Assembly: GCA_026708115.1 (NCBI GenBank)
Contig: JAPOVL010000033.1
Coordinates: 106,519 to 170,518, forward strand
DNA from: Chloroflexota bacterium
GTDB lineage: Bacteria; Chloroflexota; Anaerolineae; Aggregatilineales; Phototrophicaceae
Direction of reading: 5' to 3'
Length of the DNA stretch: 64,000 bases
Shown: positions 3,379-49,996 of the stretch, piece by piece
Numbering within the stretch: the first letter of the stretch is position 1
Layout of the letters: each line of letters opens with the position of its first letter
Translations under genes and position numbers: made by a program
The notes under the pieces: generated by a model
Told to the model about the DNA's origin: nothing
Seen by the model: only the letters and a program-made list of their open reading frames with translations
Database searches by the model: none

Positions 3379-3464
3379 CGGAGAGGGTGGGATTCGGACC
3401 CACGGCACCCGGAGGATACAACTGTTTTCGAGACAGTCCCAATCGTCCACTTTGGCACCTCTCC
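3379..3464 (-). tRNA. tRNA-Ser(CGA), copy 1, possibly degenerating
   Basis: Minus-strand cloverleaf: acceptor GGAGAGG pairing with CCTCTCC, discriminator G, anticodon stem ACTGT/ACAGT with loop CTCGAAA (anticodon CGA), a long variable arm typical of tRNA-Ser, and T stem GTGGG/CCCAC. The T loop reads TCCGAAT, so the nearly invariant U55 is C; the variable-arm stem has two G-U wobbles that are Watson-Crick pairs in copy 2. CCA is not encoded. About 86 nt. Copy 2 (4951-5037) has a canonical T loop, so this copy may be the redundant, decaying one. Confidence 0.85.
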
Positions 3465-4950: not shown

Positions 4951-5037
<87 letters not shown>

Positions 5038-14846: not shown

Positions 14847-14927
14847 AATCGCCATTTTGGATCGTAGATTGTTGACAGCGATTGTCGCTTCGTTCATTTG
14901 TCCGTGGTTTTGTCGCCACAGCATCGG

Positions 14928-16823
14928 ATGAGTTCAATGCAGGTCAGTGAAATCAAATATCTCTTCGCCATGGTGCTGATCCTGCTTTTCGCCTCTGCTA
15001 TCGGGGGAATGGGTTTGAACGCCGACGTCATCTGGGGGGATGAGTTGGCGTCGTTTGTATTCATGGGCGCCTTTGATACTACGTTTTCTCCTTCACAGAT
15101 ATTAAACACAATTGCAACGCTTGCTCCCGATCATGTGCCGCTCTACTATCTTCTGGGCGCCGGATGGTCGCAACTGGTTGGATGGTCCCAGTTGGCACTG
15201 CGCTATCTATCGTTGTTGGCTGGGGTTGCGATGATCGCATGGCTATATCGGCTTGTTTGCGACGACATCGGCCGTCGAAACGCCATTGTCGCTGCCTTCG
15301 TGCTGACAAGCAACACCTATGTCATGATTTTTTTTCATGAAGTTCGGAATTATACGTTTATACTGCTGCTGGTAGTCGTTCACACTTGGTGCTATCGACG
15401 TCTCATTCGAAGCAACAATCCATCATCGTTGCTGTGGGGCTGCTTCATAGCATCCGCCGCTGTTCTGTTGTACATGCATTTTCTTGGACTTTTCTTCTTG
15501 GTTGCGCTTGGCGCTTCACATTTGCTGGTTGAACGTTGGTCTAGTCGCACTCGAAGTATGCTCGTCGGATGGGCTGTTGCGATGGGGTCCTTGCTTCCAT
15601 ATCTGCCGACCATATTAGCGGGTGGATTCAAGTATGGAGAAACTGAAAGCGCAATCTTGGCGACCGAGTTGGCTGAACCCCTTGTCGGCCTTCTTTCAAA
15701 CGGACTTGGAATACTACTGATTCCTTTAGTCTTGAACCTCGCTTACCAAATCTCGCGAAGAAGAAATACGATGATCTTGAGCCTCGTTTCGCTGGCTCTT
15801 ATATACGTCACACTTCTGATAGTTGCTAGCTGGATGTTTGAATTGATCACATTGAGCCGTATGCGTTATTTCCTGATTTTATGGTTCCCTAGTATGATCC
15901 TTATAGCGTTTAGCATCTCAGAGTTTTCCCATTCATCGAAGATCGTCATTATTCTATTAACAGTTTGGGCATTGGCAGGATTGCAGTTCGAGCGATCAGG
16001 ACAGATTCGCCAATATGCGACACATGATAAACGAATTCTGCAATATCCGCCGCTTCACTTCTATGAGACCAGTCTCTTGGGAAAAGTGCGCCCGGAAGAT
16101 TTCCTTGTTGGATTCTCCGAGTCGCTTTCCGTGAATGAAAACAAGGGCAGGCTAGGTGTTGGAATAGCTGACTACTATCTTGGCGCCCAGCTTGGCATCG
16201 ACGGCGTATTCCTGCATACGAACCTCAAGCGGTATCGTCTGGAGGAAGACGTTCGATCTATTCTAGAAGCGCGTCCTCTTGTTTTGCTCGCTCACGATCC
16301 CAGTAAGGCGCCGCTGAACTACGCCAAAACGTTGGCGGTCGTCCAGTCTGTCTTCGCGCCCTGTGATCTCTTGGTGGACGAGCCGACGCTCTTGATTCGC
16401 AGATACGCGCATGCAGTGATGGGATGCAATCACGAAGCCGCGCCGATTGAGTACGAAAACGGCATCCGCGTTGTCGACCGGGCCCTGCGACTCGATGCCG
16501 ACGCGGAGCGAATAGAAGCGCTTACCTGGTGGCATGTGCCGGATGAAGCCATGCTGGACGAATACAACATTTCCTTACAAATCATCTCGTCAGAAGGGAA
16601 GAATGTCCGACAAACCGATCATCACCTATACAACAATATCGTGCCATGGTCTGTGATCGATTTGTCGACAGCAGAGTTGCCTGCCGACGACTACGCGCTT
16701 GTGTTGATCTTGTACAGACGTGATACCGGGTCGAAAGTTGTCGGAGTGGATGAATCGACTGACGAGTTCGGCAGTATGCTCCCCTTACTGGGATTCACCA
16801 GGCGCCTGGAAGATGTGGAATGA
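14928..16823 (+). CDS. GT39/PMT-like membrane glycosyltransferase, array gene 1
   Basis: About 631 residues from ATG 14928 (in-frame TTG at 14898 and ATG at 14937 are alternatives). Polytopic GT-C protein: the first membrane helix is followed by WGDELAS (acidic DE pair about residue 38, the expected catalytic position in the first external loop), then DHVPLYYLLGAGW, FFHEVRNY (about 137) and SRMRYFLILWFP (about 310). The soluble C-terminal ~260 residues carry DYYLGAQLGIDGVF (about 415), a C-x20-C pair (about 479 and 500), and a region starting TWWHVPDE that ends the protein. Probably transfers a sugar from a lipid carrier outside the membrane; donor and acceptor are unknown. First of seven paralogues; closest relatives are genes 2 and 3. 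Confidence 0.8.
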   Translation: MSSMQVSEIKYLFAMVLILLFASAIGGMGLNADVIWGDELASFVFMGAFDTTFSPSQILNTIATLAPDHVPLYYLLGAGWSQLVGWSQLALRYLSLLAGVAMIAWLYRLVCDDIGRRNAIVAAFVLTSNTYVMIFFHEVRNYTFILLLVVVHTWCYRRLIRSNNPSSLLWGCFIASAAVLLYMHFLGLFFLVALGASHLLVERWSSRTRSMLVGWAVAMGSLLPYLPTILAGGFKYGETESAILATELAEPLVGLLSNGLGILLIPLVLNLAYQISRRRNTMILSLVSLALIYVTLLIVASWMFELITLSRMRYFLILWFPSMILIAFSISEFSHSSKIVIILLTVWALAGLQFERSGQIRQYATHDKRILQYPPLHFYETSLLGKVRPEDFLVGFSESLSVNENKGRLGVGIADYYLGAQLGIDGVFLHTNLKRYRLEEDVRSILEARPLVLLAHDPSKAPLNYAKTLAVVQSVFAPCDLLVDEPTLLIRRYAHAVMGCNHEAAPIEYENGIRVVDRALRLDADAERIEALTWWHVPDEAMLDEYNISLQIISSEGKNVRQTDHHLYNNIVPWSVIDLSTAELPADDYALVLILYRRDTGSKVVGVDESTDEFGSMLPLLGFTRRLEDVE

Positions 16824-16884
16824 TGTCCGTTCTCATGTTAGCTTGATATCACACGTTGTGAATTCGTTCTGAAACTATAGGCAG

Positions 16885-18798
16885 ATGACTCCGGCGTACA
16901 GATCTGAAGCCAAGATCCAAAGAAATCGCCCAGTAGCGATTATAGCCATGACGGGCATATTGCTGTTGGCATTCGCGCTGGGCGCTCACGGGTTGGATCT
17001 GGATCCGATATGGGCGGACGAGTTGTACTCATTGACAAGCATGGGAGCCTTTGAGTCCCCCTACACTCTTGGTCAAGTAGTGCAGTCTTTGCGTCGATAC
17101 AACCCTGATCACGTTCCGCTCTACTTTTATATGGGAGCACTTTGGGCAAGAGTAGCCGGCTGGTCTCAGTTGTCTATGCGCCTAATATCGCTATTTTTCG
17201 GCATGCTTACAGCAGCGACGCTATATCGCTTTGGAGCACATGTCCTAAGCCAACGAACAGCGCTGGTTGCTGCCTTTTTGACCGTCACAAGCGCTTTTGT
17301 GATCTTGTATTTTCATGATCTGCGCATGTATACAATGCTAATGTGGCTTGGTATCCTTCACACTTGGCTTTACTGGCGAATTGCGCACGGACATCATGTT
17401 TCGCGGCTGACTTGGGTGTTGTTCTGCGGATCCGCCATCTCTCTGTTTTATACACACAACTTTTCAACGTTAGTATTCGCTGGCCTAGCCTTCTATCATC
17501 TGCTGTTTATAAAGAAGTCACTTTGCTGGCTTAAGGTCATTGTCGCGTGGTGCATCTGCGCCCTGGTGTTCTTGCCTTACGCGCCCTTTGTGATTGATGG
17601 TATTCTGCTGCATCAAGAATTCGACCGAAACCCCTTAGATACCATGGCCGTGATAGACACGTTTGCTTTGCTATTGGCAAATGGTCAGATCGTCTTATGG
17701 TTGCCCATTCTGTTGACGATCGGATATGCGCTTGCGCGTCGCCAGCGTGGCTCGATTCTGCGGATCCTCGCTGTCGCAAGTTCTATGGTCGTCGTACTTC
17801 TTGCCATACATATGACATTTCACCTTATTACTATTACCCGTCTGCGATATCTGCTCGTCCCGTGGTTACTTATAAACGTTGTTATTGCATACGGCATTGC
17901 GGAAATCCCGAAACGCGCATGGATCGCTCATGTGTTGATTCTTGTCTGGCTGATTGCGGGTTACCGGTTTACAAGTTCAGGTGATATTCTCAATTACGCT
18001 GGGCTGATGTCAAGAACGGAAAATTTTCCGCCGCTGCACCAATATGAACGTCATTTGAGGGACAGCGTGGCGTCAACGGATTTTCTGGTGGGTTTTGACG
18101 AATCAGGCGTAGTGAGTCAGGTGCATCGCGAGTATTACAGTGCAAACAGCATCAGTGATTATTACTTGCAGACAATGCTCGGTATAGATGGCACATTTCT
18201 CCATTCAAGCAAGAAACGATATCGCCTAGAGCGAGATGTACGCGAAATACTGCAATCACATCCTCACGTTCTACTTGCGCACGACCCTTCGAACGTGCCG
18301 CTCAACTATGCCCGAACGCTTGCGATCATAGAAGAAGCTTACGCACCTTGTCCATCGTTGGTTGATGAAGCGGCATTGCGGATTCGCAAATACACACATC
18401 CCGTCATGCGCTGCGATCACCGTCCCGCTCCCATTGACTACGACAATGGCATGCGATTGATCGACCGCGCTGCATATTACGATGCCGACGGGGAGATTGT
18501 TCAAGCGCTGACCTGGTGGGATGTTCCTGACGCGGCAACATTGGACGAATACAACATTTCCGTTCAGGTCATCTCATCAGAATGGAACAATGTTCGACAA
18601 GTCGATCGACACCTTTATGACAAGCTCATCCCATGGAGCGTCATTGAATTGCCAACGGGTGATCTGACCCCGCGCGAGTACCGATTGATGTTGGTTCTCT
18701 ATGATCGTGAGACGGGCAGAAGAGTCATCGGTAGCGATCCGTCAAGTGGCGAATCAGCTGAGATACTGCCGTTGCTTGTTTTTAGCGTACCAGCGTAA
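16885..18798 (+). CDS. GT39/PMT-like membrane glycosyltransferase, array gene 2
   Basis: 637 residues. WADELYSLTSMGAFE (DE about residue 45), DHVPLYFYMGALWA, YFHDLRMY (144-149), TRLRYLLVPW, then SDYYLQTMLGIDGTF (about 424), HDPSNVPLNYARTL, cysteines 489 and 510, and the C-terminal DEYNISVQVISSEW...VDRHLYD segment. Same layout as gene 1 with clear sequence similarity over the whole length, including the HDPS(K/N)(A/V)PLNYA stretch found only in genes 1-3. The stop codon overlaps the start of gene 3 by one base (TAATG), which supports translational coupling. Confidence 0.82.
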   Translation: MTPAYRSEAKIQRNRPVAIIAMTGILLLAFALGAHGLDLDPIWADELYSLTSMGAFESPYTLGQVVQSLRRYNPDHVPLYFYMGALWARVAGWSQLSMRLISLFFGMLTAATLYRFGAHVLSQRTALVAAFLTVTSAFVILYFHDLRMYTMLMWLGILHTWLYWRIAHGHHVSRLTWVLFCGSAISLFYTHNFSTLVFAGLAFYHLLFIKKSLCWLKVIVAWCICALVFLPYAPFVIDGILLHQEFDRNPLDTMAVIDTFALLLANGQIVLWLPILLTIGYALARRQRGSILRILAVASSMVVVLLAIHMTFHLITITRLRYLLVPWLLINVVIAYGIAEIPKRAWIAHVLILVWLIAGYRFTSSGDILNYAGLMSRTENFPPLHQYERHLRDSVASTDFLVGFDESGVVSQVHREYYSANSISDYYLQTMLGIDGTFLHSSKKRYRLERDVREILQSHPHVLLAHDPSNVPLNYARTLAIIEEAYAPCPSLVDEAALRIRKYTHPVMRCDHRPAPIDYDNGMRLIDRAAYYDADGEIVQALTWWDVPDAATLDEYNISVQVISSEWNNVRQVDRHLYDKLIPWSVIELPTGDLTPREYRLMLVLYDRETGRRVIGSDPSSGESAEILPLLVFSVPA

Positions 18799-20717
18799 TG
18801 TCAGTAAAGACCACCGATAATTCAAGCACCAGAAACGATAGCCGCAGCCACCTATGGGCTCTCATGGCTATGATTTTAGTTCTGCTCTTTACCTTTGGTG
18901 TTGGTGTACACGGGTTGAACGCGGATCTGGTCTGGAATGATGAACTGGCGTCGCTTACGAATTTCGGCGCCTTTGATAAGACTTTGGCACTGCAAGACGT
19001 GCTCGCAACAATGAAGCAATATAGCCCAGCCGACGTGCCGGTTTATCCATGGATCGGTTATATTTGGGCGCGGATAGCCGGATGGTCTCAATTCGCGCTA
19101 CGGTCGCTGTCTCTTTTTGCAGGTGTGCTCATGATCGCGTTCCTGCATAGATTTGCGTCTAGCATCTTCGATTGTCGGGTAGCCATAGTCGCATCATTTC
19201 TGATAGCGAGCAACTCTTTTGTATTGCTGTACTTTCACGAGTTGCGAATCTACACATTGTTTATGCTTCTTGTCACCATCCATTTGACGTACTACTGGAA
19301 GCTTGCATATGACGCTCGCATTAAGAAACTTCCTTGGTTGGGGTTTCTAATGAGTACCGTTTTTATGGTTTATACGACGATAGTTTCCGTAGCTGTTATC
19401 GCTGCACTTGCAGTATTTCACGTGCTGTTTGCGCCAAAGGGTCGTCGATGGAAAAAGATCGTGTTTGGCTGGGCCATAGGAGCGCTGTTCTTACTCCCAT
19501 TCGCAACAGACTTCGTGCAAGGAGTCGGACTAGTTACAAGCGATGGACTGGCCGCTTCAAGCTCCGAAATCATCCGTGCCTTCTTGCACCTCGCTGTTAA
19601 CGGTTGGGATTTCATGTGGATTCCGCTCTTGGCTGCTGTATGGTATGCGCTGTGGAAAACAACCAATAGCAATCTGCCAAGATTGATTGCCATAGCGCTG
19701 GCTATGGCCGGGCTTCTACTGCTGATGAATTACCAATTCGCCTTAATCGCCGTGACGAGGATTCGCTACTTCCTTGTTGTCTGGATTCCGCTCTCAATCA
19801 TATTCGCATATGGCATGGTTTCATTGCCCCGTTGGAAGTCGCCCACGGTCGTCCTACTCGTGATATGGTTCGTGGCAGGTATCCAGTTCGGACAATCTGC
19901 AGACTTCTCAACATATTATGCTGGCGCGAAAGCATCAAGTGAGCAGTGGCCCCCACTCTTGCAAATCGTAACAGGCCTTCGAGAAAGAGTAAGTTCTCAA
20001 GACTTCTTAGTTGGATTCTATGAATCCCACGATCCGAACTATTTGTGGCAAGTCCACAGCGCAGGTAGCGTATCCGACTACTACCTGCGAACTCAACTCG
20101 GCATTGACGGAGTATTCCTTCATGCCAGCCTCAAGCGATACCGTTTAACTAAGGACGCACGCGACATACTCAAGGCGCATCCGCATTTGTTGCTGGCTCA
20201 TGATCCGAGTGATGTCCAGCTCAACTATGCGAGAACGCTGGAAGTTGTTCGGGAAGTTCTCATGCCATGTGACAAGTTGGTCGATGAACCTACGTTATCA
20301 ATCCGCAAATATGCGCATCCCGTTATGGGCTGCGAACGTGAACCCGCATCAATTCATTACGAAAATGGGGTTCGCTTATTGGACCGTGCCATTGAATTCG
20401 ATAATGAAGACCAGCGAATAGACGTATTGACCTGGTGGGATGTCCCGGACGACGAAATGCTGGACTTATACAATATTTCGCTGCAGATCATCACGCCTGA
20501 TTGGCAGAAACTACGCCAAGTCGATCGACACTTTTATGACGATCTGGTCCCATGGAACGTCATAGAGCTGTCCACGGCAGATCTGCCCGCTGGCGACTAC
20601 CGGCTCATGTTGATCTTGTACAATCGAGAGAACGGGTCCAAAGTTCAAGGCGTCGATGAACTCAGCGGCGAATCGGCCGGTATACTGCCAATACTGCGTT
20701 TTTCCATCGACGCCTAG
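18798..20717 (+). CDS. GT39/PMT-like membrane glycosyltransferase, array gene 3
   Basis: 639 residues, starting within the stop codon of gene 2. WNDELASLTNFGAFD (DE at 48-49), DVPVYPWIGYIWA, YFHELRIY (about 146), TRIRYFLVVWIP, SDYYLRTQLGIDGVF, HDPSDVQLNYARTL, the C-x20-C pair (CDKLVDEP...VMGC) and TWWDVPDDEMLDLYNISLQII at the head of the C-terminal region, ending ILPILRFSIDA. In the first loop DHVPL of the other copies reads ADVPV, so the otherwise conserved His is missing. Confidence 0.8.
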   Translation: MSVKTTDNSSTRNDSRSHLWALMAMILVLLFTFGVGVHGLNADLVWNDELASLTNFGAFDKTLALQDVLATMKQYSPADVPVYPWIGYIWARIAGWSQFALRSLSLFAGVLMIAFLHRFASSIFDCRVAIVASFLIASNSFVLLYFHELRIYTLFMLLVTIHLTYYWKLAYDARIKKLPWLGFLMSTVFMVYTTIVSVAVIAALAVFHVLFAPKGRRWKKIVFGWAIGALFLLPFATDFVQGVGLVTSDGLAASSSEIIRAFLHLAVNGWDFMWIPLLAAVWYALWKTTNSNLPRLIAIALAMAGLLLLMNYQFALIAVTRIRYFLVVWIPLSIIFAYGMVSLPRWKSPTVVLLVIWFVAGIQFGQSADFSTYYAGAKASSEQWPPLLQIVTGLRERVSSQDFLVGFYESHDPNYLWQVHSAGSVSDYYLRTQLGIDGVFLHASLKRYRLTKDARDILKAHPHLLLAHDPSDVQLNYARTLEVVREVLMPCDKLVDEPTLSIRKYAHPVMGCEREPASIHYENGVRLLDRAIEFDNEDQRIDVLTWWDVPDDEMLDLYNISLQIITPDWQKLRQVDRHFYDDLVPWNVIELSTADLPAGDYRLMLILYNRENGSKVQGVDELSGESAGILPILRFSIDA

Positions 20718-20800
20718 AACCATTTGTGGTGGACGAGACCTTCAAGGCAAGGCTCGGCCGTCCGACAATTATGGAATCATAAGCCATCGCATCTCGTATT

Positions 20801-22702
20801 ATGGTCGCTACAAAAGACACTCTCAGACTGCCCGGTAGGCTAACAATCATCCTCACCGTTCTTCTGCTGGTTTTTGCAATTGGCGTCAGCGGCGCGAATG
20901 GCTATATCTTCCGTACAGACGAACTGTTCTCTGTTTCAAATATGGGCGGGTTTGATCCGCCTTACGGTCCTGCCGAGATTATTTACTCGATTTCACAATT
21001 CAGTCCGGATCATGCTCCGCTGTTTTTCTTGCTTGGCGCTGGCTGGGCGAGCGTCGCGGGCTGGACACAGTTCGCCTTGCGCATGTTTGCTGTTTTGACG
21101 GCGACTGTGATGATCGCCTTTCTGTATCGGTATGCGGCTGATGCTTTCGATTATCGAACTGGTCTGCTTTCATCGTTCTTGATGGGCACATCCGCCTACT
21201 TGGTTCTGCACTTTCACGACTTTCGCATGTATCCGCTGCTGCTTTTGCTTGGGATCGTTCACAGTTGGCTCTATTGGCGGCTGGAGAGCGGACGAGCGAC
21301 CAATCGGTGGAACTGGTTCCTGTTTGTTTTGTCAGCGGTGTTGCTGGCATATACGCATACGTTTTCGGTCATACTTTTTGCCGGACTGGCGGCTTTTCAC
21401 CTGGTTCTTGCCCGCAAATCAAATCTCTTTATGAAGATTTGGGCGGGATGGGCGATAGCTGCGATTGCTTATCTGCCATATTTTTCAACAACACTGGCTG
21501 CGTTGCAGCAAGCGGCTCAAATCGACAAAGTGACGGCGGCCGCGGCCAGTATCGGAGAACTGATCGGGACTTTCTCGCATCTGCTGACGAATGGCGCTGA
21601 CTGGCTTCTGATTCTGTTTGGCGCGCCAGTCATATATGGCGTCCTTCGCCTTCGAGACCGCGCCTCATCCAGGCTGATGTTTCTTGCGATTGCAATGCTT
21701 GTCGTTCCGCTCGCGCTTAATGAGCTTGTCGGTTTGATTCCACTCTCGAGGATGCGCTATTTCCTGATACTCTGGTTTCCCTTCTTGTTGCTCTTTGCCC
21801 GCGGGATCACGCAAGTTCCACGCTGGACATGGCTCGCGCCGATTCTTGTGATTGCGTGGTCGATTGCCGGGCATCAGTATTATCATTCTGAGGATGTGCT
21901 ACTTTACATAGGGGGCATGTCCAAGACGCGCAATTATCCCGCTTTGGACGATTATGTAAGACAGTTGCATAACAAAGTTCGCTCGGAGGACTTCCTGCTC
22001 GGTTTCGCGCGCAATTACTATCTCAATCACGATCACAAACATGGCAAGAGCGTGTCCGACTATTATACGCAGTTACAACTAGGGATCGACGGCGCATTCG
22101 TGCGTAGCCGGGCGGTCGGTCCCTGGCTCGTCGAGGAGATGAACGAATTGATTGATGGGCATCCCTATCTGTTGTTCGCGTATGAACCGCAAAACTCGCC
22201 TAGCGGACTTGAAGGCGCCAAACACGTGATGCACAGCACCTACAAAGCCTGCGACGTCCTGGTGGATTCCAGCACGCTCTATGTACAAAGATTCGTCGAT
22301 CCCTTGCTAGACTGTGATCGAGATTATCAGCGTATCGAATACGAAAATGGCATTGCAATTGCCGATCGCTATGTTGAGTTCCAGCCGGATGCCGCTCTTT
22401 TGACGATACTGATCGGCTGGGATATACCCAACCAGCGTTTGCTGAATGATTTCAGTTTCTCGTTCCAGATTCACACCCCACAAGGGGAAAAAATTGCGGA
22501 GGGACATAGCGACTTTTATCTACATCAGTTTTCGCGTAAGTGGAACACGCTCGAACTGCCTATCGCCGGCATCGCTCCTGGTGAGTATCGTCTGGTTGTC
22601 ATTCTGTATAATACCCAGAGCGGGAAGAAAGTCGGCGGAGTCGATATTTCCACAGGCGAAACGGGCACGATTCTTCCGATTTTTTCGTTTACTGTAGAAT
22701 AG
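20801..22702 (+). CDS. GT39/PMT-like membrane glycosyltransferase, array gene 4
   Basis: 633 residues. FRTDELFSVSNMGGFD (DE at 40-41), DHAPLFFLLGAGWA, HFHDFRMY (137-144), SRMRYFLILWFP, SDYYTQLQLGIDGAF, GHPYLLFAYEP, the C-x20-C pair (CDVLVDSS...LLDC) and a shorter, more divergent C-terminal region (IGWDIPNQRLLNDFSFSFQIH). This copy begins the second subgroup (genes 4-6) with SDYY/ADYYTQ.QLGIDGAF and HPYLLFA(Y/F). It is 83 bases after gene 3, a gap large enough for an internal promoter, though none is obvious. Confidence 0.8.
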   Translation: MVATKDTLRLPGRLTIILTVLLLVFAIGVSGANGYIFRTDELFSVSNMGGFDPPYGPAEIIYSISQFSPDHAPLFFLLGAGWASVAGWTQFALRMFAVLTATVMIAFLYRYAADAFDYRTGLLSSFLMGTSAYLVLHFHDFRMYPLLLLLGIVHSWLYWRLESGRATNRWNWFLFVLSAVLLAYTHTFSVILFAGLAAFHLVLARKSNLFMKIWAGWAIAAIAYLPYFSTTLAALQQAAQIDKVTAAAASIGELIGTFSHLLTNGADWLLILFGAPVIYGVLRLRDRASSRLMFLAIAMLVVPLALNELVGLIPLSRMRYFLILWFPFLLLFARGITQVPRWTWLAPILVIAWSIAGHQYYHSEDVLLYIGGMSKTRNYPALDDYVRQLHNKVRSEDFLLGFARNYYLNHDHKHGKSVSDYYTQLQLGIDGAFVRSRAVGPWLVEEMNELIDGHPYLLFAYEPQNSPSGLEGAKHVMHSTYKACDVLVDSSTLYVQRFVDPLLDCDRDYQRIEYENGIAIADRYVEFQPDAALLTILIGWDIPNQRLLNDFSFSFQIHTPQGEKIAEGHSDFYLHQFSRKWNTLELPIAGIAPGEYRLVVILYNTQSGKKVGGVDISTGETGTILPIFSFTVE

Positions 22703-22773
22703 AGTTAGCGCTTCAATTGCATTCGTTGAATAAGTCGCAATTGGCAACTTTTCCCGACTAGGGAGACTTGGTC

Positions 22774-24696
22774 TTGCAGTTCAGCAGCATCTTCGCCGAC
22801 AACCGTGATACTATCGGCCAGAGCACGTCATCTTTGCTGATGGCGTTCATTCTCCTCTGCGTTTTTGCCTTTGGCGCCAATGGCTTGAATACCGACTCCA
22901 TCTGGACCGATGAGCTATACGCTATTACCAACATGGGTGGATTCGACGGACCCTATTCGCCGGCAGAAGTTGTCAATTCAGTGGCCGAGAACTTCCCCGA
23001 TCATGTGCCGCTCTTCTTCTTGCTTGGCGCCGGCTGGGCAAACTTCGTGGGGTGGACGCAATTCGCCCTGCGCTTGTTGCCGGTATTCGCAGGCCTGCTC
23101 ATGATTGCCTGGACATATCGCCTGGCAGGCGACTTGTTTGGTCGCTTTGCCGGCCTTGCTGCCGCGAGTCTCTTGGGTACCGCGGCCTATATGGTCCTGT
23201 ATATCCATGACTTCCGTATGTATTCACTCTTCCTGATGTTTACTGCCGTGCACATGTGGTTGTATTGGAGGTTGTTGGAACGCAAATCCAAATATGGACG
23301 TCTCACGTTTGTGGCATTCGCGTTGTCGACGGTGGCGCTGTTTTATACGCATTTTTTTGCTGGCATCCTGTTTGCGGGGTTAGGCGTCTACCATTTGCTA
23401 TTTGGGCCGCGATCCCGCCGCTGGTGGCAGATCCTATTGGGATGGGCTGTAGGCGCTTGCCTATTCCTGCCTTACTTGCCGGTCCTGGTTGATGGCATAC
23501 AGCGCGCCGCTGATAAAGCGGATGTCACCAGCCGAGCGGCTTCTGCCCCAGAGTTGCTTGGAACCCTGTTTTTGCTCTTGAGCAACGGTAGCTGGCTGAC
23601 GGGCGCAATGCTGGCAGGACTTCTTGCTTATGTAATAGCGCGCCGACGACCGCTGCGCTTGATCAAGATCATGACGATTCCTTTGACAATGGTGACTTTC
23701 ATCATCGTGGCCAATGAATTGATCGGCATCATTCCCCTAACCAGAATGCGCTACTTTATTGTCATCTGGATACCGGTTGCATTGATTCTGGGCGCCTGCC
23801 TCGGGCATGTCCCGCGACGGCGGTTGGTGAGCGGAATCGTACTGCTGGCCTGGCTTGTGTCGGGCTATCATTACTACCGATCGGAAGCGATCATGAACCA
23901 TGTAGGCAGCATGGTGTTTACCAGGCTCTATCCACCTCTGCCTGATTATGTCTGGCATCTAAAAGGCAAGATACGCTCGGAGGACTATCTGCTGGGATTC
24001 TCCCAGAGCAGCCATGTGAACAAAGTCCTGACACTGGGCAACAGTGTGGCGGATTATTACACGCAGGAGCAACTGGGTATCGATGGCGCCTTCATCCGTC
24101 GTGGCGCCTATGGAGAATGGCTGGAAGGCGAGATCAGACAATGGATGGGCGATCAACCCTATCTATTATTCGCCTTTGATCCTCAAGATTTGCCAAACAG
24201 TTATCAGCGCGTGCGCGAAGTCATCGAAAGCAATTATTTGCACTGCGGTGTCGTGGTGGAACAACCGCAACTTTTTGTCCAGCGCCATGTCAATTCACGC
24301 CTGGACTGTGACCGCGAATACCGGCCGATCGCCTATGAAAACGGCGTGACCCTGGTCGATCGTTTCGCCCAATATGCACCGGAAGAGCGAAAAGTTTATA
24401 TCCTTACCGGTTGGGAAGTGGAGAGCGAAGAGGCGCTATATCAGTACAATTTGTCCTTGCAATTCATCACGCCGGATTGGCAACGGCTAGGGGCCCAAAT
24501 CGACCGCCATCTTTATGATAATATTCTCCCGTGGTTTAGTGCCGAATTGTCTACCGAGGATCTGCCGCCCGGCGACTATCGTGTGATGGTCATTCTCTAC
24601 GATCGCGCATCCGGTAAGAAAGTAGGGGGAGTCGACCTGGCCAGCGGCCGGGAAGACAGGTTCTTCCCGATAGTCTCGTTCGTCGTAGAAGCGTGA
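22774..24696 (+). CDS. GT39/PMT-like membrane glycosyltransferase, array gene 5
   Basis: About 640 residues. The best start is a TTG at 22774 because AGGGAG lies eight bases upstream; another TTG at 22768 is too close to it. WTDELYAITNMGGFD (DE about 46), DHVPLFFLLGAGWA, YIHDFRMY (about 145), TRMRYFIVIWIP, ADYYTQEQLGIDGAF, the C-x20-C pair (CGVVVEQP...RLDC) and LTGWEVESEEALYQYNLSLQFI, ending FFPIVSFVVEA. The N-terminal half is nearly collinear with gene 4, the C-terminal half with genes 4 and 6. Confidence 0.8.
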   Translation: MQFSSIFADNRDTIGQSTSSLLMAFILLCVFAFGANGLNTDSIWTDELYAITNMGGFDGPYSPAEVVNSVAENFPDHVPLFFLLGAGWANFVGWTQFALRLLPVFAGLLMIAWTYRLAGDLFGRFAGLAAASLLGTAAYMVLYIHDFRMYSLFLMFTAVHMWLYWRLLERKSKYGRLTFVAFALSTVALFYTHFFAGILFAGLGVYHLLFGPRSRRWWQILLGWAVGACLFLPYLPVLVDGIQRAADKADVTSRAASAPELLGTLFLLLSNGSWLTGAMLAGLLAYVIARRRPLRLIKIMTIPLTMVTFIIVANELIGIIPLTRMRYFIVIWIPVALILGACLGHVPRRRLVSGIVLLAWLVSGYHYYRSEAIMNHVGSMVFTRLYPPLPDYVWHLKGKIRSEDYLLGFSQSSHVNKVLTLGNSVADYYTQEQLGIDGAFIRRGAYGEWLEGEIRQWMGDQPYLLFAFDPQDLPNSYQRVREVIESNYLHCGVVVEQPQLFVQRHVNSRLDCDREYRPIAYENGVTLVDRFAQYAPEERKVYILTGWEVESEEALYQYNLSLQFITPDWQRLGAQIDRHLYDNILPWFSAELSTEDLPPGDYRVMVILYDRASGKKVGGVDLASGREDRFFPIVSFVVEA

Positions 24697-24749
24697 TTGC
24701 CAGTTGATCACGCAGTGCTGTCGGGGAGTTGCAAGTACGGAATCAAGCC

Positions 24750-26693
24750 ATGCATGCTGCGCAATCCAGTAGCTCAGGGCGTCAGGTAGAACAGGGCGCA
24801 AACAGTTGGACCGTCGGCCGCGGAAGCGCGCTTGCCTGGCTGACGGTCATATTGCTGATGGCATTTGCTTTTGGCGCAAATGGATTGAATACGGAACCCA
24901 TTTGGGCAGATGAACTGTATTCTCTGACAAATATGGGTGTTTTCAATCCACCCTATAGCCCACAGCAGATCATCAAGTCGATCACCACCTACAGCTCGGA
25001 TCATGTACCCTTGTACTACCTGCTTGGATCCCTGTGGGCGCAGATTGTCGGCTGGACACAGGTTTCAATGCGCATGTTTTCGGTTCTGTGCGGGGTGCTG
25101 ATGATCGCCTGGCTGTATCGCCTGTCCACGGCGGTATTCTGCTGGCGGACAGGTCTGATTGCGGCATTGCTCATGACTACATCGACCTATGTGATTCTCT
25201 TTTTCCACGATATTCGCATGTATACGATGCTCTTATTGCTGTTCGCCATGCACGCCTGGCTATATTGGCGACTTGCTCATGCGCGGCAGGAATCCCGCCT
25301 GTATTGGTTCGCTTTCTTCGTAAGTGCCGTGGCTCTGCTATACACTCACGTGTTCTCGCTGCTGGTTTTCGCACTGCTCGGCTTATACCACCTGCTATTT
25401 GCGCCACGGACTGCGCGCTGGTTACGTTTGCTGTTCGTTTGGGGGCTTAGCGGGCTGCTGTTTCTGCCCTATATGCCAACTTTGTTTACTGCCATAGAAT
25501 TGGCCACGGAAAAAGTGAAGGTGACGACTGCCGCGGCCTCTATCCCGGAATTGATCTATAACTTTGCATTCCTGCTCGTTAACGGTCAGGATCTGTTAAT
25601 CCCGCTGTTTGCTGGCATTGTGATTTACTCGATCTGGCGCACGCGCTCGGGCAGCGCCTGGAAACTCGCGCTAGTGTCGCTGGCGGTATTGCTCTTGATC
25701 ACGCTGCTCAACGAGGTGGTTGGCATAATACCGGTCAAGCGCATGCGCTATTTCCTAATCTTGTGGATCCCATTCGTTATGATCTGCGCCTTCGCCCTTA
25801 CATCAATGCCACGTTGGCATCGCGCCACTTTTTTGTTCGCGCTCATTTGGATATTCGCGGGTTACCAATTCTATCGCTCGCAACAACTTCTAGACTATAT
25901 TGGCGGTATGCAGAAGGCGCGTCTTCACCCGCCAATACACGAATATACGGACGCGCTGCGTGGCAAGGTTCGGGCCGAAGACTTCCTGCTCGGGTTTTCC
26001 TTCGTTGATTATGTAAACAATGTCTACAAGTTTGGCGATAACGTGATTGACTATTACACCGACGCGCAGTTGGGCATCGACGGCGCATTTATTCCCTGGC
26101 GCTGGGGTGGGGAACGCTTGATGAACGATCTCGTTCGCAAAATCGATCGACATCCCTATATCTTGCTCGCGTACCATCCAAATGACCTCAAAAAGAATCA
26201 CGAAGACGTCTACGAGTATATCGTGACCCGCTACGATGATTGCGAGGCGGTCATTGACAGACAAGACCTAATTGTTCAACGTTTCGTGAATCCCCTGGCG
26301 GGTTGCCAGCACGAATACCGGCCCATTCATTTCGAAAACGGAATCATCATCGTCGACCGCTTCGGCGAGTACGATGCGACGAAGGACCTGTTCCGGATCG
26401 TCACCGGTTGGGAAGTCGCGTCCGATCAGCAGCTTGACCAATACAATATCTCGATACAATTGCTGGACTCTCAATGGGAGAAATACTGGCAGGGTGACTG
26501 GCATCTCTACAACCGCATCTTGAAATGGCACGAGTTGGAATTCCAGCCGACTCGTGAACTCACTCCGGGAGTCTACCGTCTCGTGGTTATCCTGTACGAT
26601 CGCGAAACTCGTGAGAGAGTCACAGGAACCGACATGACCAGTGGCGAAACCAGCCAACTGCTGCCGCTCTTGACCATCTCTGTCGAAGCCTAG
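24750..26693 (+). CDS. GT39/PMT-like membrane glycosyltransferase, array gene 6
   Basis: About 647 residues if started at the ATG 24750; a TTG at 24729 lies directly behind GGGGAG, too close for good initiation, so the start is uncertain. WADELYSLTNMGVFN (DE about 54), DHVPLYYLLGSLWA, FFHDIRMY, KRMRYFLILWIP, IDYYTDAQLGIDGAF, the C-x20-C pair (CEAVIDRQ...LAGC), and VTGWEVASDQQLDQYNISIQLLDSQ in the C-terminal region. It has a longer polar N-terminus (SSSSGRQVEQ) than the other copies. Confidence 0.8.
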   Translation: MHAAQSSSSGRQVEQGANSWTVGRGSALAWLTVILLMAFAFGANGLNTEPIWADELYSLTNMGVFNPPYSPQQIIKSITTYSSDHVPLYYLLGSLWAQIVGWTQVSMRMFSVLCGVLMIAWLYRLSTAVFCWRTGLIAALLMTTSTYVILFFHDIRMYTMLLLLFAMHAWLYWRLAHARQESRLYWFAFFVSAVALLYTHVFSLLVFALLGLYHLLFAPRTARWLRLLFVWGLSGLLFLPYMPTLFTAIELATEKVKVTTAAASIPELIYNFAFLLVNGQDLLIPLFAGIVIYSIWRTRSGSAWKLALVSLAVLLLITLLNEVVGIIPVKRMRYFLILWIPFVMICAFALTSMPRWHRATFLFALIWIFAGYQFYRSQQLLDYIGGMQKARLHPPIHEYTDALRGKVRAEDFLLGFSFVDYVNNVYKFGDNVIDYYTDAQLGIDGAFIPWRWGGERLMNDLVRKIDRHPYILLAYHPNDLKKNHEDVYEYIVTRYDDCEAVIDRQDLIVQRFVNPLAGCQHEYRPIHFENGIIIVDRFGEYDATKDLFRIVTGWEVASDQQLDQYNISIQLLDSQWEKYWQGDWHLYNRILKWHELEFQPTRELTPGVYRLVVILYDRETRERVTGTDMTSGETSQLLPLLTISVEA

Positions 26694-26699
26694 ACCCCC

Positions 26700-28610
26700 A
26701 TGCTAGATCTAGCCCCAAGCAAACGTAATCTATTCCAGGCTTTTCCTCGCTGGTGGCGGATGCTTCCATTATTGCTGCTGGTGACGCTGCTGGCGGCGCA
26801 AGGAATAAACGCCGATGTCATCTGGTACGACGAGCTGACCTCAATCGGCCATGCCGGCGGCTTGACAGGACCCTTTTCGCCGACAGACGTGCTTCACTCG
26901 ATCAGCACGCACAGCCCCAAACACGGGCCTTTGTTCTTTGAATTGCTGGCGGGTTGGGGCGCGCTTGTGGGCTGGCACCACGCTGTCCTACGCTGTTTGC
27001 CGCTCTTCTTTGGGGTTCTGACAGTCGCCTGGGTATACCGTATTGGTGCCGATTTTCTGGGCTGGCGCGCGGGACTATGGGCCAGCGCTTTCCTGGGGCT
27101 GAACGTCTTCTGGTTGGAGTACTTTCACGAAATCCGCATGTATACCGCGCAAGCGGCTATGCTCGTAGCGATGCTCTGGCATTACTTGCACATTGTGCAT
27201 TCAAAGTCAACTATTGGCAGAGTTCGTTGGTTCGGGCTGATCCTCTCAGCATCGTTGTCACTTTATGCCCAGCCTTATTCATTCTTCGTATTCCTGGCTG
27301 TCGGCTTCTATCACCTGATATTCGTTCCCAAAACGAAGCGCTGGATTCATACGGCCGCGGCCTTCTTGCTTGTCGGCGTACTATACCTGCCTTGGCTTCC
27401 AGTAACTTACATAGGAGTGACAACAAAATATGACGCTTGGGGAGAGATGCCCTTTGCGCAGGCGGTAGACGTCTTTCTCTTGCTACTGTCTAACGGAAAT
27501 TGGTTAGTGCTTTTGATCGCGTTTGTCGCGGCCGCCTTGCACCTGCGGAAGCGCGAGCACCTGAAAAAAACCTTACCCTTTTGGGTGTTTGCCTTTGTCA
27601 TCCTGGCGCTTCTATTGTCAGTGAATGAAGCCGTGAGACTGATTCCTTTACGTCGCTCGCGCTATTTCTTTATCGTCTTCTACCCCGCCGCGCTACTCGT
27701 TGGCAGTGGTTTGGCTTGGTTACGGCCCCGCGCGCTGCCACTGATTTTCCTGGCAATTTATCTCGGGTCTGGATTCTTGTTGCGGGCGACAGAAGACTAT
27801 GTCGGGTTTCAGGGTACGATTCGCGCCATCCAGAGCTATCCCCCGATTCACGACTACGTTCTGACACTGCGAGACGTCGTCTCTGAAGAAGACTTCATTG
27901 TTGGATTCTCGAACATCAATTTCATCATACGCCAAGGCAAAGCTGGCAAGAGCACGGCGGATTACTATTTCGAGAGGTTGATGGGCATAGACGGCACTTT
28001 CATTCGAACGAATCTTGATAACGCTCAACTCGAGGAGGATATCCCGGACAAGCTGGCAGACCATCCCTATCTTCTCTTTACCTACGATCCGACAAACAAA
28101 CCGGAGATCTTCGACCGAACCAGGTTAATCATCGAGAGAAACTATACGCCCTGTGAACTTGTTTTGGACGAAGCGGAACTGCGCGCATGGCGCTATGTCT
28201 ATCATACGTTGGATTGCGACCGTAAATACCGGCCGATACACTACGAGAACGGGATCGCTCTTGTTGATAAATTCGCTGATTTCATCCCCGATCGCGACGT
28301 CCTGCGCGTCGTGACCGGATGGGAAGTGGCAGACACAGCGCTCTTGCATCAGTTCAATATTTCGATTCAGATCCATTCGATCGACGGGCAAAAGGTCGCG
28401 CAAATCAACCCCGATCGTCACCTCTACGACGATGTCCTGAAGTGGTTCGTTGTAGAGTTGTCGACTTCGGATCTGTCGCCTGGCGACTATAGGGTCGTGG
28501 TCATGGTCTATGACCGAAATCCTCCTCACGCGAAGGTCTTCGGCGCCGACATCGAATCCGGCGAGTTCGGGAAGATTTTGCCCATACAGTCCTTCAGCAT
28601 TCCGGGATAG
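26700..28610 (+). CDS. GT39/PMT-like membrane glycosyltransferase, array gene 7
   Basis: 636 residues, starting 6 bases after the stop of gene 6. WYDELTSIGHAGGLTG (DE at 44-45), KHGPLFFELLAGWG, YFHEIRMYTAQ, RRSRYFFIVFYP, ADYYFERLMGIDGTF, the C-x20-C pair (CELVLDEA...TLDC), VTGWEVADTALLHQFNISIQIH and VDRH-like NPDRHLYDD. It is the most divergent copy, with KH(G)PL for DHVPL in the first loop and MGIDG for LGIDG, and forms its own branch by eye. Last glycosyltransferase before the methyltransferase gene. Confidence 0.8.
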   Translation: MLDLAPSKRNLFQAFPRWWRMLPLLLLVTLLAAQGINADVIWYDELTSIGHAGGLTGPFSPTDVLHSISTHSPKHGPLFFELLAGWGALVGWHHAVLRCLPLFFGVLTVAWVYRIGADFLGWRAGLWASAFLGLNVFWLEYFHEIRMYTAQAAMLVAMLWHYLHIVHSKSTIGRVRWFGLILSASLSLYAQPYSFFVFLAVGFYHLIFVPKTKRWIHTAAAFLLVGVLYLPWLPVTYIGVTTKYDAWGEMPFAQAVDVFLLLLSNGNWLVLLIAFVAAALHLRKREHLKKTLPFWVFAFVILALLLSVNEAVRLIPLRRSRYFFIVFYPAALLVGSGLAWLRPRALPLIFLAIYLGSGFLLRATEDYVGFQGTIRAIQSYPPIHDYVLTLRDVVSEEDFIVGFSNINFIIRQGKAGKSTADYYFERLMGIDGTFIRTNLDNAQLEEDIPDKLADHPYLLFTYDPTNKPEIFDRTRLIIERNYTPCELVLDEAELRAWRYVYHTLDCDRKYRPIHYENGIALVDKFADFIPDRDVLRVVTGWEVADTALLHQFNISIQIHSIDGQKVAQINPDRHLYDDVLKWFVVELSTSDLSPGDYRVVVMVYDRNPPHAKVFGADIESGEFGKILPIQSFSIPG

Positions 28611-28620
28611 GTTATCTGTA

Positions 28621-29295
28621 ATGAATTCAGTCAAGCGTCTGCTGAGGCCGCTCTATGCGCCGCTCGTTCGCAAGTATCGCAATCACGCGAAACTGAAAAA
28701 CCAGCAAGGGCTTATCCGCGCGGGCGTCAACGCATGCACTGGATCCGGAAAACCGCTCAAAGTCATTATTGGCGCCGGAGATACTCGTTACGAAAACTGG
28801 ATCACGACCGATATTCCGGCATTCCACGTTCTTAAACACGAGCATTGGGCGCTGCTCTTCCAGCCCGCGTCAATCGACAGAATGTTGGCTGAACATGTCT
28901 TTGAGCACTTGACAGTCGACGAATTAGGCCAGTTTCTGCGTTTGGCGCGCCTCTACATGGCCAAGAGCGGGCGCATTCGTCTGGCTGTGCCGGACGGAAA
29001 CCATCCCGATGCAAATTACATTGAACATGTGCGTCCCGGCGGCATAGGAGAGGGGGCCGACGATCACAAGGTGCTCTACACCAGCGAAAAGATCGTAAAT
29101 GTTTTGCAAGAGTGCGGCTACGAATTCCAACTCTTGGAATACTTTGACGACTCAGGTGAATTTCATCGGGAACCCTGGCATGCGGCCGACGGATTCATCG
29201 CTCGATCGGCTCTACATGACGAGCGCAATGTCGAAGGCAAACTGACTTATACCAGCTTGATCGTCGACTGTTGGCCAAGTCAATACATCGAGTAG
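28621..29295 (+). CDS. SAM-dependent methyltransferase-like protein
   Basis: 224 residues from the ATG at 28621, ten bases after gene 7; an in-frame upstream start inside gene 7 is unlikely. LKVIIGAGDTRYENWITTDI is an atypical glycine-rich SAM-binding segment, followed by SIDRMLAEHVFEHLTVDELGQFL and GRIRLAVPDGNHPD, the pattern of class I methyltransferases often found in surface-polysaccharide loci (predicted SAM-dependent methyltransferase family). Position at the end of the array suggests it modifies or caps the glycan made by the upstream enzymes, but this is inference. Confidence 0.72.
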   Translation: MNSVKRLLRPLYAPLVRKYRNHAKLKNQQGLIRAGVNACTGSGKPLKVIIGAGDTRYENWITTDIPAFHVLKHEHWALLFQPASIDRMLAEHVFEHLTVDELGQFLRLARLYMAKSGRIRLAVPDGNHPDANYIEHVRPGGIGEGADDHKVLYTSEKIVNVLQECGYEFQLLEYFDDSGEFHREPWHAADGFIARSALHDERNVEGKLTYTSLIVDCWPSQYIE

Positions 29296-36277: not shown

Positions 36278-37270
36278 CTATTGAATAATCAAGACTTGCC
36301 CAACATAAATGAGGTTGGGATTGAGCAGACCATTGGCGGCGGCAATATCCCACATATTGCGCCCGTACAGGTTTGCGATGCTCGCCAGAGTCTCGCCGCG
36401 ACGCACAACATGACTCTGCGCTTCAGCAGAGACGGCGGCGGATTGCTGTCCGCTCAAACCGGTTGCCAGCGGCACTATAATAATCTCGCCGGCGTACAAG
36501 CGACTCTCGCCCCGTAGATTGTTCAAGTCCAACAGATCTTGCAAAGGCACGGCATAGCGCTGCGCCAGGGCTTCGACTGTGTCACCCGGCTGAACGACGC
36601 GTATGCGATAGAGCAATTTGGGAAGTGTCGGCACGGATGTCGGAACGACGGTTGGCACAATTGTGGACACAGATTTCGCCGCCACAGCTTCAAGAGTCGC
36701 TGTAGCGACGGCTTGCTCCTCAAATGCCGGAACTTTAAGGACCTGACCGACGTAGATCCGGTTCGGATTGGCAAGATTGTTGACAGTTGCCAGCGTCTGC
36801 CAATCCAGGCCGTAGCGCTGGGCGATCCGGTTTAGCGCTTCGCCCGGCTGAACGACATGGCTGCCCTCGAAACCATCCAACGCGCCTTCCGGCAAATGGA
36901 TGGTTTGCCCGCTTATGAGGTGACTCTCGCGCTGGATATTGTTCGCCGCCATCAAATCAGCTACGGTGACGCCATAACGAGCGGCAATCGACCGGATGCT
37001 ATCTTCCGGCCCCACTTGATGGCTGAGTAGTTGTATCTCTGGCACGGGAATGCGTAGTATCTGCCCACGCGCAAGGAACTCGTCGTCGCTCAGATTGTTG
37101 CGTTCCAGCAGCGCCTCTACCGACACTCGAAAATGCGCCGCGATCGATTCCAAACTGTCGCCCGCTTGAACCGTGTACCATTCATCGTTTGCTGATGCGC
37201 TGAAAACGCTCCAAAGCAGAAGGGCGGTTGTTATCGCAATGCAACAGATCCTTCGAGGCAAAGCGCGCAT
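36278..37270 (-). CDS. Exported protein with five LysM domains
   Basis: 330 residues. Signal peptide (ICCIAITTALLLWSVFSASA), then LysM repeats at about 31-75, 83-127, 137-181, 222-267 and 286-330, each ending in a (I/V)-Y/L-x-GQ-x-L-x-(I/V) pattern such as YVGQVLKVP. A Pro/Thr/Val-rich linker (about 200-217) separates repeats 3 and 4. LysM binds peptidoglycan or chitin-like GlcNAc polymers; with no catalytic domain it probably acts as a wall-binding adaptor. First gene of the operon with the ureohydrolase-like and P1-peptidase genes. Confidence 0.9.
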   Translation of the reverse strand: MRALPRRICCIAITTALLLWSVFSASANDEWYTVQAGDSLESIAAHFRVSVEALLERNNLSDDEFLARGQILRIPVPEIQLLSHQVGPEDSIRSIAARYGVTVADLMAANNIQRESHLISGQTIHLPEGALDGFEGSHVVQPGEALNRIAQRYGLDWQTLATVNNLANPNRIYVGQVLKVPAFEEQAVATATLEAVAAKSVSTIVPTVVPTSVPTLPKLLYRIRVVQPGDTVEALAQRYAVPLQDLLDLNNLRGESRLYAGEIIIVPLATGLSGQQSAAVSAEAQSHVVRRGETLASIANLYGRNMWDIAAANGLLNPNLIYVGQVLIIQ

Positions 37271-42877: not shown

Positions 42878-44113
42878 CTATTCCCGGCGATTCCTCTTGC
42901 GCAAGAACGCTGGCAACTCAGTGTTCTTCGGATCAATATTCTCATAAGTACGCGGATCTTCCTGTGGGGACGATGCGGGGCCCATCTGTTGACGCTGGAA
43001 AGATGATCCGCCCCCACTGGATATCGACTCTCCAGGGGACGGCGCCTCGATTTCAACATCCTCGTATATCGGTCGCTGCACCGGCGTTGGTGCATGCGGT
43101 ACCGGCGTCGGTTGGCGGATCGGCAACGTGCCCGCTTCTTTCATGCTCGCCTCGAGCCGGCTCCGCTCAAACCCGGTCGCGATCACGGTGATGTGGACCT
43201 CATCGCCCATACTCTCGTCAATGTGGGCGCCAAAGATCAAGTTACATTCCGGATGCGCGCTGTCCTTGATAATTGCCGCCGCTTCGTTGACCTCGAATAG
43301 TGTCAGGTCGCTGCCACCGGTGATCGAGAACAGGATACCTCGCGCGCCGTCGATCGTGACGTCCAGCAAGCCGCTGGTGATCGCCTGGTCTGCCGCGGCG
43401 CGAGCCCGGTCGTCGCCGGCCGCGCGTCCCACTGCCATCAGCGCCGCGCCGCCTTCGGACATAATCGTGCGCACATCGGCAAAATCGAGATTGATCAAGC
43501 CGGGCACGGTGATCAACTCGGATATGCCCTGGATGCCTTGACGCAATACATCATCGGCCAGCGAGAAGGCCTGCTGCAGCGTGGAGCGCTTGTCCGCCAT
43601 CTGCAAGAGACGATCATTCGGGATAACGATCAGGGTATCAACCTGGCTCTTCAATCCCTCAATGCCTGTTTTGGCAAGCTGAGCGCGGCGAGTTCCTTCA
43701 AAGGTAAAGGGACGGGTCACGACGCCAATGGTCAAAGCGCCCAACTCTTTGGCGATTTGCGCGATCACTGGTGAAGCGCCGGTGCCCGTGCCGCCGCCCA
43801 TACCGCAGGCAACAAAGATCATGTCAGAACCGCGCAAGACCTCGAGCAGGTCTTCCGAACTCTCTTCAGCTGCTTTTCGCCCGATCTCTGGATTGCCGCC
43901 GGCGCCCAATCCGCGCGTCAATTTGTCTCCAATACGCACACGCGTTTTGGCTTTGGAAAGCATCAAGGCCTGGTTGTCCGTGTTGACTGCGATGAATTCG
44001 ACGCCTCCAAGACCCTCGTTGATCATGCGATTCACGGCGTTGCCACCGCCACCACCGACACCAACGACTTTTATTTGCGCGAAATTCTCACCTGTAATTA
44101 GATCGTTGACCAT
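42878..44113 (-). CDS. ftsZ: Cell division protein FtsZ
   Basis: 411 residues; tubulin-like GTPase that forms the division ring. Nucleotide-binding [16 protein letters not shown], tubulin signature [10 protein letters not shown], and the synergy-loop region [11 protein letters not shown] are all present. A variable linker (about 320-390) is followed by the C-terminal peptide [11 protein letters not shown] that would bind FtsA. AAAGGA lies nine bases before the ATG and a promoter at 44174-44201 gives it its own transcript. Last gene of the dcw cluster. Confidence 0.97.
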
Positions 44114-44173
44114 TGTGACTTTCCTTTGAAATCAACGCGTTTACGCAACGCAATTGCCAGATTACTGCCCTTT

Positions 44174-44201
44174 ATTGTACGCCCATTCATAGCGAACGCA
44201 A
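44174..44201 (-). promoter_or_regulatory. ftsZ: Promoter of ftsZ
   Basis: On the minus strand TTGCGT, 16-base spacer, TACAAT; about 60 bases upstream of the ftsZ ATG, in the 133-base gap after ftsA. Confidence 0.6.
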
Positions 44202-44246
44202 ATCAAATATGAAGCAAAAATTAAAATGAAATACAGCCTTGTTTTC

Positions 44247-45482: not shown

Positions 45483-45488
45483 AAGGAT

Positions 45489-49995: not shown

Positions 49996-49996
49996 C

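Follow-up and report, generated by a model that had tools for sequence, protein, structure and literature searches.

Why would a bacterium keep seven near-equal membrane glycosyltransferase genes side by side, and are all seven equally free to vary? The question is raised by a Chloroflexota bacterium (Phototrophicaceae; assembly GCA_026708115.1, 4.8 Mb on 56 contigs), in which we analysed a stretch of 64,000 nucleotides (nt), here called the window (contig JAPOVL010000033.1, positions 106,519 to 170,518). Seven successive open reading frames (ORFs) on the forward strand of the window, genes 1 to 7, span 14898-28610, encode predicted GT-C glycosyltransferases and are followed by a likely methyltransferase gene. 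On sequence comparison with related genomes, we consider it probable that the predicted catalytic halves of genes 1-3 are exchanged between strains by homologous recombination and that the C-terminal halves mostly stay with their place in the array, in which case the surface glycan would change.

Divergence of heads and tails along the array

We refer to the membrane and catalytic half of each protein (approximately residues 50-430) as the head, to its C-terminal half as the tail and to the slots of the array as positions 1-7; same-genus genomes carry the prefix G, and public proteins without genomic context the prefix P. Heads and tails were compared among the six genomes with seven-gene arrays (the study genome, G008, G009, G017, G021 and G022), which gives 15 genome pairs per position, or 10 at position 7. 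At positions 4-7, every measured pair shows 82-97% identity in heads and beta tails, similar to the flanks, and the head falls at least 15 points below the beta tail in none of 55 pairs. It does so in 11, 3 and 8 of the 15 pairs at positions 1, 2 and 3, respectively. Amino acid identity between replaced heads is 49-54% at position 1, 49-51% at position 2 (study genome versus the rest) and 33-36% at position 3 (G017 and G022 versus the rest), and the tails under them are mostly 71-92% identical. The position-1 head of G008 is intermediate, with 72-73% identity to one head class. Variable decoration, one of the purposes that the original prediction had proposed for the array, gains evidence from these replaced heads on largely retained tails.

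Synonymous divergence (dS) and the proportion of synonymous differences (pS) were obtained from NG86 counts, with figures for 12 of the 15 genome pairs per position. Between classes, position-1 heads differ by dS 1.5-2.2 and beta tails by 0.21-0.36; gene 1 of the study genome against the other class gives 1.5-2.0 and 0.21-0.36. The head of its gene 2 has a pS of 0.76-0.77 against all five other seven-gene genomes, and its beta tail a dS of 0.21 against G021, 0.27 against G009 and 0.62 against G008. Position-3 heads of G017 and G022 are at dS 2.8 or saturated, with beta tails at 0.40-0.67. Elsewhere, dS is 0.07-0.45 in the flanking genes and 0.10-0.67 at positions 4-7. Because synonymous sites are near saturation in the heads and far lower in the tails of the same genes, replacement is indicated rather than faster drift. 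For the 18 genes at positions 1-3, the tree of heads and the tree of tails are mutually rejected (approximately unbiased test, p 1.4e-7 and 1.2e-6); tails cluster by array position, heads do not.

The borders of the replaced segment recur. Gene 1 breaks at residues 50/51 and 429/430 in all four comparisons (G008, G009, G017 and G022), and gene 2 has its left border at 47/48 in three comparisons and its right border at 433, 438 or 458. Against G022, the fitted borders of gene 2 are 433/434 and 559/560, corresponding to a change of tail, and three comparisons at position 3 each place one border, at 423-426. The gain in likelihood was 64-134 for the 14 fits made at positions 1-3 and 6-42 for six controls taken from positions 4-7, where a mild step is seen at position 6. 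The left border lies immediately after the DEL motif and the right borders lie within or past a DYY...GIDG block. When residues 1-440 are divided into 20-residue blocks, mean nt identity between paralogs of positions 1-3 is highest at residues 421-440 (65%) and 41-60 (62%).

The same head type occurs at different array positions. In G017 and G022, the heads at position 3 sit on a position-3-type tail, yet they are 57-60% like the position-1 heads of G008, G009, G017 and G022 and 50-52% like those of the study genome and G021. We also searched public proteins (7999 candidates scored, 120 of 149 matches listed) and clustered 110 of them, 590-699 amino acids (aa) long, with 47 array proteins at 70% single linkage; five of these public proteins match array proteins at 98% identity or more. 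Among the matches listed, beta-tail clusters 0, 1 and 2 bear 9, 10 and 2 head clusters in this set of 157 proteins, and the beta-tail clusters of positions 4-7 bear one each, counts that represent types, not events, with tail cluster 0 merging positions 1 and 3. The head-tail pairing of gene 2 recurs in P0001 and P0002 (heads 95 and 92%, beta tails 88 and 85% identical), and its head class is found on tail cluster 2 (study genome, P0001, P0002) as well as on cluster 0 (P0003, P0004). P0062 combines the beta tail of gene 1 (81%) with a head of 31% identity.

Several observations weigh against head exchange over slot-bound tails. At position 2, six of 15 pairs have a beta tail 15 points below the head, as does one of 15 at position 3, and the position-2 beta tails are themselves replaced in G017 and G022 (dS 2.17 and 1.26 against gene 2), so tails are not strictly constant. 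Position-3 beta tails exceed the divergence of the flanks (dS 0.40-0.82 in most pairs, with 0.82 reached in unswapped pairs). P0003 is a weaker second example of the gene 2 head on another tail, since its whole tail is about equidistant (70-74%) from several tail classes, and P0069 carries a head of the position-6 cluster on a divergent tail. A search of 34 genomes of the genus gave no donor of the gene 2 head, the nearest being position-2 heads at 52-54% identity; among the matches listed, heads close to it belong solely to public proteins P0001-P0004. Among two-gene loci, close pairs give no clear sign of a head swap, head and tail tracking each other; the exceptions are G013/G030 and G026/G030 (64 versus 77-78 for head and tail, at 84% identity of the Fe-S protein) and pairs with G028, in which tails are up to 14 points below heads.

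Within the study genome, no exact match between paralogs in the same register exceeds 20 nt. This gives no support to gene conversion among neighbouring genes of the array, and exchange between strains is likelier than exchange inside the array. Genes 1-3 are mutually 56-58% alike in their tails and 34-37% in their heads, and this higher tail likeness would be older or derive from other genomes.

Enzyme family, gene organization and chromosomal site

The proteins are 641, 637, 639, 633, 642, 654 and 636 aa long from the first start codon and 31.7-45.7% identical over their full length, with gaps of 61, -1, 83, 65, 32 and 6 nt between them and a further 10 nt to the last gene if it starts at 28621 (Table 1). 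This bears out the original prediction of seven consecutive paralogs of nearly equal length. All seven ORFs are intact. PMT_2 (PF13231) is the sole Pfam model above cut-off among them, passing in genes 1-6 and falling short in gene 7 (24.7 against 26.1 bits). No NCBIfam model passes for genes 1-7, the best being archaeo_STT3 on gene 7 (13.6 bits against a cut-off of 450), and neither Pfam nor NCBIfam profiles place any of the seven in the named ArnT, PMT or STT3 families.

The motifs on which the original prediction was based are present: DE(L) in the first external loop and H(D/E)xRxY in all seven proteins, and RxRYF in six, with RLRYL in gene 2 (RxRY(F/L) in 7 of 7). Residues D45, E46, H144, R147 and Y149 (numbered as in gene 2) are invariant across the 48 array proteins of seven genomes. 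An AlphaFold2 model of gene 2 (pLDDT 90.2) comprises an ArnT/PMT/STT3-like membrane domain, an alpha/beta domain (residues 384-505) and a beta-sandwich (517-634), the latter two corresponding to the long exported C-terminal region noted earlier. Foldseek places ArnT (5ezm, E 5.7e-8) at the top of the matches to this model, with PMT4 and STT3 also matching, and gene 2 is predicted to adopt the GT-C membrane fold. A sequence search for solved relatives gave none that was meaningful for the GT-C profile. The gene 2 tail has a weak Foldseek match to the Wzt carbohydrate-binding domain (E 1.1e-3, TM 0.53/0.49, 0.53 by query length, root-mean-square deviation 8.9 A), and Wzt is not among the matches listed in a further fold comparison of the tail. 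Any likeness of the tail to the Wzt domain and GH2 beta-sandwiches in fold would be weak, and no search made here found them to be sequence relatives.

Table 1. Features of the array, with window coordinates
Feature	Coordinates	Strand	Evidence
Gene 1, GT-C glycosyltransferase	14898..16823	+	ORF; PMT_2 34.8 bits; orthologues in five other seven-gene genomes; alternative ATG at 14928
Gene 1 exchanged head, residues 51-429	15048..16184	+	Two-breakpoint fits against G008, G009, G017 and G022: nt identity 59-60% inside, 86-90% outside
Gene 1 kept tail, residues 430-641	16185..16820	+	86-89% nt identity in four fits
Gene 2, GT-C glycosyltransferase	16885..18798	+	ORF; PMT_2 29.9 bits; AlphaFold2 pLDDT 90.2
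Gene 2 exchanged head, residues 48-433 (right border varying from 433 to 458 with the genome compared)	17026..18183	+	54-55% nt identity inside against G008, G009 and G021; 81-89% outside
Gene 2 tail, residues 434-637	18184..18795	+	Low beta-tail dS against G021 and G009; replaced in G017 and G022
Gene 3, GT-C glycosyltransferase	18798..20717	+	ORF; PMT_2 41.5 bits; orthologues in G017 and G022 bear a different head
Gene 3 head, residues 1-425, replaced in G017 and G022	18798..20072	+	nt identity 46-47% in head, 82-84% in tail
Gene 4, stable GT-C glycosyltransferase	20801..22702	+	ORF; PMT_2 30.2 bits; head 88-95%, beta tail 85-91% (15 pairs)
Gene 5, stable GT-C glycosyltransferase	22768..24696	+	ORF; PMT_2 38 bits; head 87-96%, beta tail 82-93% (15 pairs)
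Gene 6, stable GT-C glycosyltransferase	24729..26693	+	ORF; PMT_2 41.1 bits; head 89-97%, beta tail 86-93% (15 pairs)
Gene 7, stable GT-C glycosyltransferase	26700..28610	+	ORF; PMT_2 24.7 bits, below cut-off; head 87-92%, beta tail 85-96% (10 pairs)
Likely S-adenosylmethionine (SAM) methyltransferase, 224 aa (start inferred)	28621..29295	+	PHROG 6636, E 0.0011

The spacing of the genes is our sole reason for regarding them as a putative single operon. Over both strands, promoter-like signals (21 against 16.9 expected, sd 4.1) and terminator-like signals (25 against 19.6, sd 4.6) are near chance. The methyltransferase gene that was predicted to close the array does follow it closely, but its identity is weakly established: PHROG 6636 'methyltransferase' is a weak match, the longer ORF 28510-29295 has no Pfam or NCBIfam model above cut-off and no solved relative was found at E <0.05. 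Of the 30 relatives' loci with a visible array end, 19 contain the gene (the loci of the study genome, G021 and G025 are left out of this count). An enzyme of the type of gene 7, which is 32-38% identical to the other array genes, is found in 18 of these 19 loci and in one of the 11 without the methyltransferase gene (Fisher p 3.8e-6, shared ancestry uncorrected). This co-occurrence suggests that the product of gene 7 is methylated.

The array was compared at 33 same-genus loci, 32 fetched and that of the study genome; G004 (83% complete, best match E 3.6e-53) was left out. Seven genes are present at six loci, counting G021, although its seventh gene runs into a contig end, six genes at one (G032), two at 23, one at two and only fragments at one (G025). 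Each of the five other seven-gene genomes holds a gene 87-90% identical to gene 6. The unusual depth of the tandem expansion is thus confirmed and is restricted to a lineage. In a tree of the Fe-S protein (without support values) the six seven-gene genomes cluster, with the six-gene genome adjacent, so the expansion looks like that of one clade. All 32 fetched loci have the Fe-S and GNAT genes upstream of the array, and lpdA lies downstream in 28; of the others, G008, G021 and G025 are cut by contig ends and G033 has no lpdA match. A mobile element was rejected as an explanation, given the same flanking genes at the site across loci. Reading of the sequences at the site also gave the names hisS, DinB, rlmB, rplT and infC. 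In G033, an 8.5-Mb genome, rplT and infC lie on the opposite strand to the right of the array, whose first gene is merely 25% like gene 7.

The study bacterium and its seven-gene relatives are likely marine-sponge symbionts, as the name prefixes RHO, COS and APA of the relatives fit sponges sampled in the portion of PMC8163846 available to us. With up to 50 candidates scored per genome, PMT_2 matches number 41 in the study genome and 24 to at least 50 in genomes of the genus, so a large GT-C repertoire is usual here. ArnT and bacterial PMT_2 enzymes presumably fall in the GT83/GT39 area of CAZy, and we take GT83 to be the ArnT family. GT83 is named among the most abundant glycosyltransferase families of sponge Chloroflexi in the available text of PMC6306507.

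Other GT-C relatives lie elsewhere in the study genome, near ORFs named by reading. Two are located between pheT-like (856 aa) and pheS-like (358 aa) ORFs (L063:5331-15442, contig C45), with a third just past the pheS-like ORF near a glutamate-5-kinase-like ORF, and two adjacent relatives of ~510 aa lie beside groES- and groEL-like ORFs (L064:8591-11686, contig C33). Within the window, the reverse strand carries two tRNA-Ser genes that share the anticodon cga and are separated by 1.5 kb (3379-3464 and 4951-5037), a 330-aa protein with five LysM stretches (36278-37270) and a division and cell-wall cluster (42878-56636) with FtsZ, FtsA, an FtsQ-type POTRA protein, MurB, a Mur ligase, GT28, FtsW/RodA, a glycosyl transferase of family 4 and transpeptidase domains. 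A role in defence was rejected (no PADLOC match for gene 2, gene 7, the methyltransferase or a PIN protein), as was a phage origin (genes 2 and 7 match no PHROG).

Alternative explanations and a possible mechanism

Could the pattern arise without any movement of heads? A larger ancestral array may have lost different paralogs in each lineage, copy number does shift within the genus, and the head of gene 2 is only 52-54% like other position-2 heads. However, the tails of the same genes cluster by array position with beta-tail dS of 0.2-0.6 for most pairs, and the borders are intragenic at recurrent residues, which whole-gene loss cannot yield, so recombination would still be needed; we judge this history quite unlikely. 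That the membrane half evolved faster without recombination, through relaxed or diversifying selection, is an extremely improbable account of the divergence, even if GT-C heads can tolerate change and dN (nonsynonymous divergence) is also raised in the replaced heads. The near-saturation of synonymous sites in heads does not extend to the tails of the same genes, positions 4-7 show no such effect, and heads are conserved within an allele class (gene 3 against G009, dN 0.03, dS 0.14). An origin of the divergent heads by point mutation was rejected on synonymous sites.

Similar paralogs are a known assembly hazard, and all compared sequences are fragmented metagenome-assembled genomes or derive from them. 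Assembly could thus have joined heads and tails of different strains, but we see very little chance of this, given that head-tail pairings recur in separate assemblies (gene 2 with P0001 and P0002, G017 with G022 at position 3) and that positions 4-7 on the same contigs show no head replacement. A further alternative accepts the exchange and concerns its target: the enzymes may glycosylate exported proteins, in the manner of PMT or an oligosaccharyltransferase, so that head exchange would alter protein glycans, not a polysaccharide. PMT_2 is the sole Pfam model to pass, the archaeal STT3 model stays below its cut-off on gene 7 and the best Foldseek match is ArnT, all of which argue against this possibility, and we regard it as unlikely.

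Head exchange between strains, the reading that we favour, suggests a mechanism. Use of polyprenyl-phosphate sugars at the external side of the membrane is established for ArnT and PMT. Each predicted enzyme of the array would likewise draw a sugar from a polyprenyl-phosphate carrier on that side and transfer it to an exported acceptor. Donor and linkage would be set by the head, and the alpha/beta and beta-sandwich tail may hold the acceptor or a partner for that step, a division that fits exchanged heads on mostly slot-bound tails. According to the accessible part of PMC8035078, some large GT-C enzymes have extracellular carbohydrate-binding domains that are believed to bind the acceptor. 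A strain would take up DNA of a relative, crossing over on the left within the conserved DE-motif block and on the right within either the tail or the DYY...GIDG block. Cells with an uncommon surface may evade phages or the sponge host, and selection by either would favour rare heads. The enzyme of gene 7 would attach a sugar that the methyltransferase would then cap.

The original prediction that each enzyme has its own donor or acceptor needs modifying: genes 1-3 are hypervariable, but genes 4-7 are stable, so that not all are equally free to vary, and variation mainly in the catalytic half argues more for a position-fixed or shared acceptor. Taken together, and held more tentatively than the exchange itself, the locus may be a combinatorial surface-glycan machine, in which the tail of a slot fixes the acceptor or the step, the head fixes sugar and linkage and strains of a sponge-symbiont lineage trade heads at two motif-borne crossover sites; three slots would be open and four would form a locked core, the last locked enzyme being paired with a methyl cap.

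Relation to known systems and significance

The array shares its membrane fold (5ezm), the DE pair in the first external loop and the PMT_2 profile with ArnT and bacterial PMT_2 enzymes. Unlike ArnT, its enzymes have an additional C-terminal beta-sandwich, occur in seven tandem copies and have exchanged heads. As in the transmembrane glycosylation systems of several components, or gtr modules, described in the accessible part of PMC8035078, a GT-C enzyme would act outside the membrane, but no lipid-sugar synthase or GtrA flippase is seen in the array; the single GtrA match of the genome lies on contig C5 and the array on C45.

Recombining specificity segments are already known from restriction-modification genes. 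In Helicobacter pylori, target recognition domains undergo domain movement (DoMo), as reported in the consulted portions of PMC3983042 and PMC3077401. Here, as there, a segment bearing specificity would move between genes through recombination at conserved flanks, in DoMo including weakly similar motif-coding DNA. A changed DNA motif was measured for DoMo, whereas in our case the moving part is a predicted glycosyltransferase membrane domain of ~380 residues known from sequence. Glycosyltransferases are also named among segmentally variable genes, defined by a variable segment of >70 residues between conserved ones (PMC387263, in the text accessible to us). The variable segment of the array, approximately residues 50-430 and flanked by conserved parts, exceeds that length. 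That study, as far as its accessible text goes, classes genes one by one; our case concerns seven slots of one array, three of them variable and four stable, and replacement of the variable segment is demonstrated. The open-licence PMC literature that we searched describes no tandem array of GT-C genes in which membrane heads are replaced, tails are bound to their slots and the slots divide into open and locked ones, and the arrangement appears to be new.

How surface glycans vary in dense, uncultured animal symbionts is an open question, for which this locus offers defined borders and a set of variable versus fixed slots. It also offers a testable division of labour, in which the head would determine donor or linkage and the tail acceptor or step. 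If this is true, head types could be read from metagenomes and would predict the type of glycan and interactions with phages or the host, and the natural junctions would guide the construction of chimeric GT-C enzymes.

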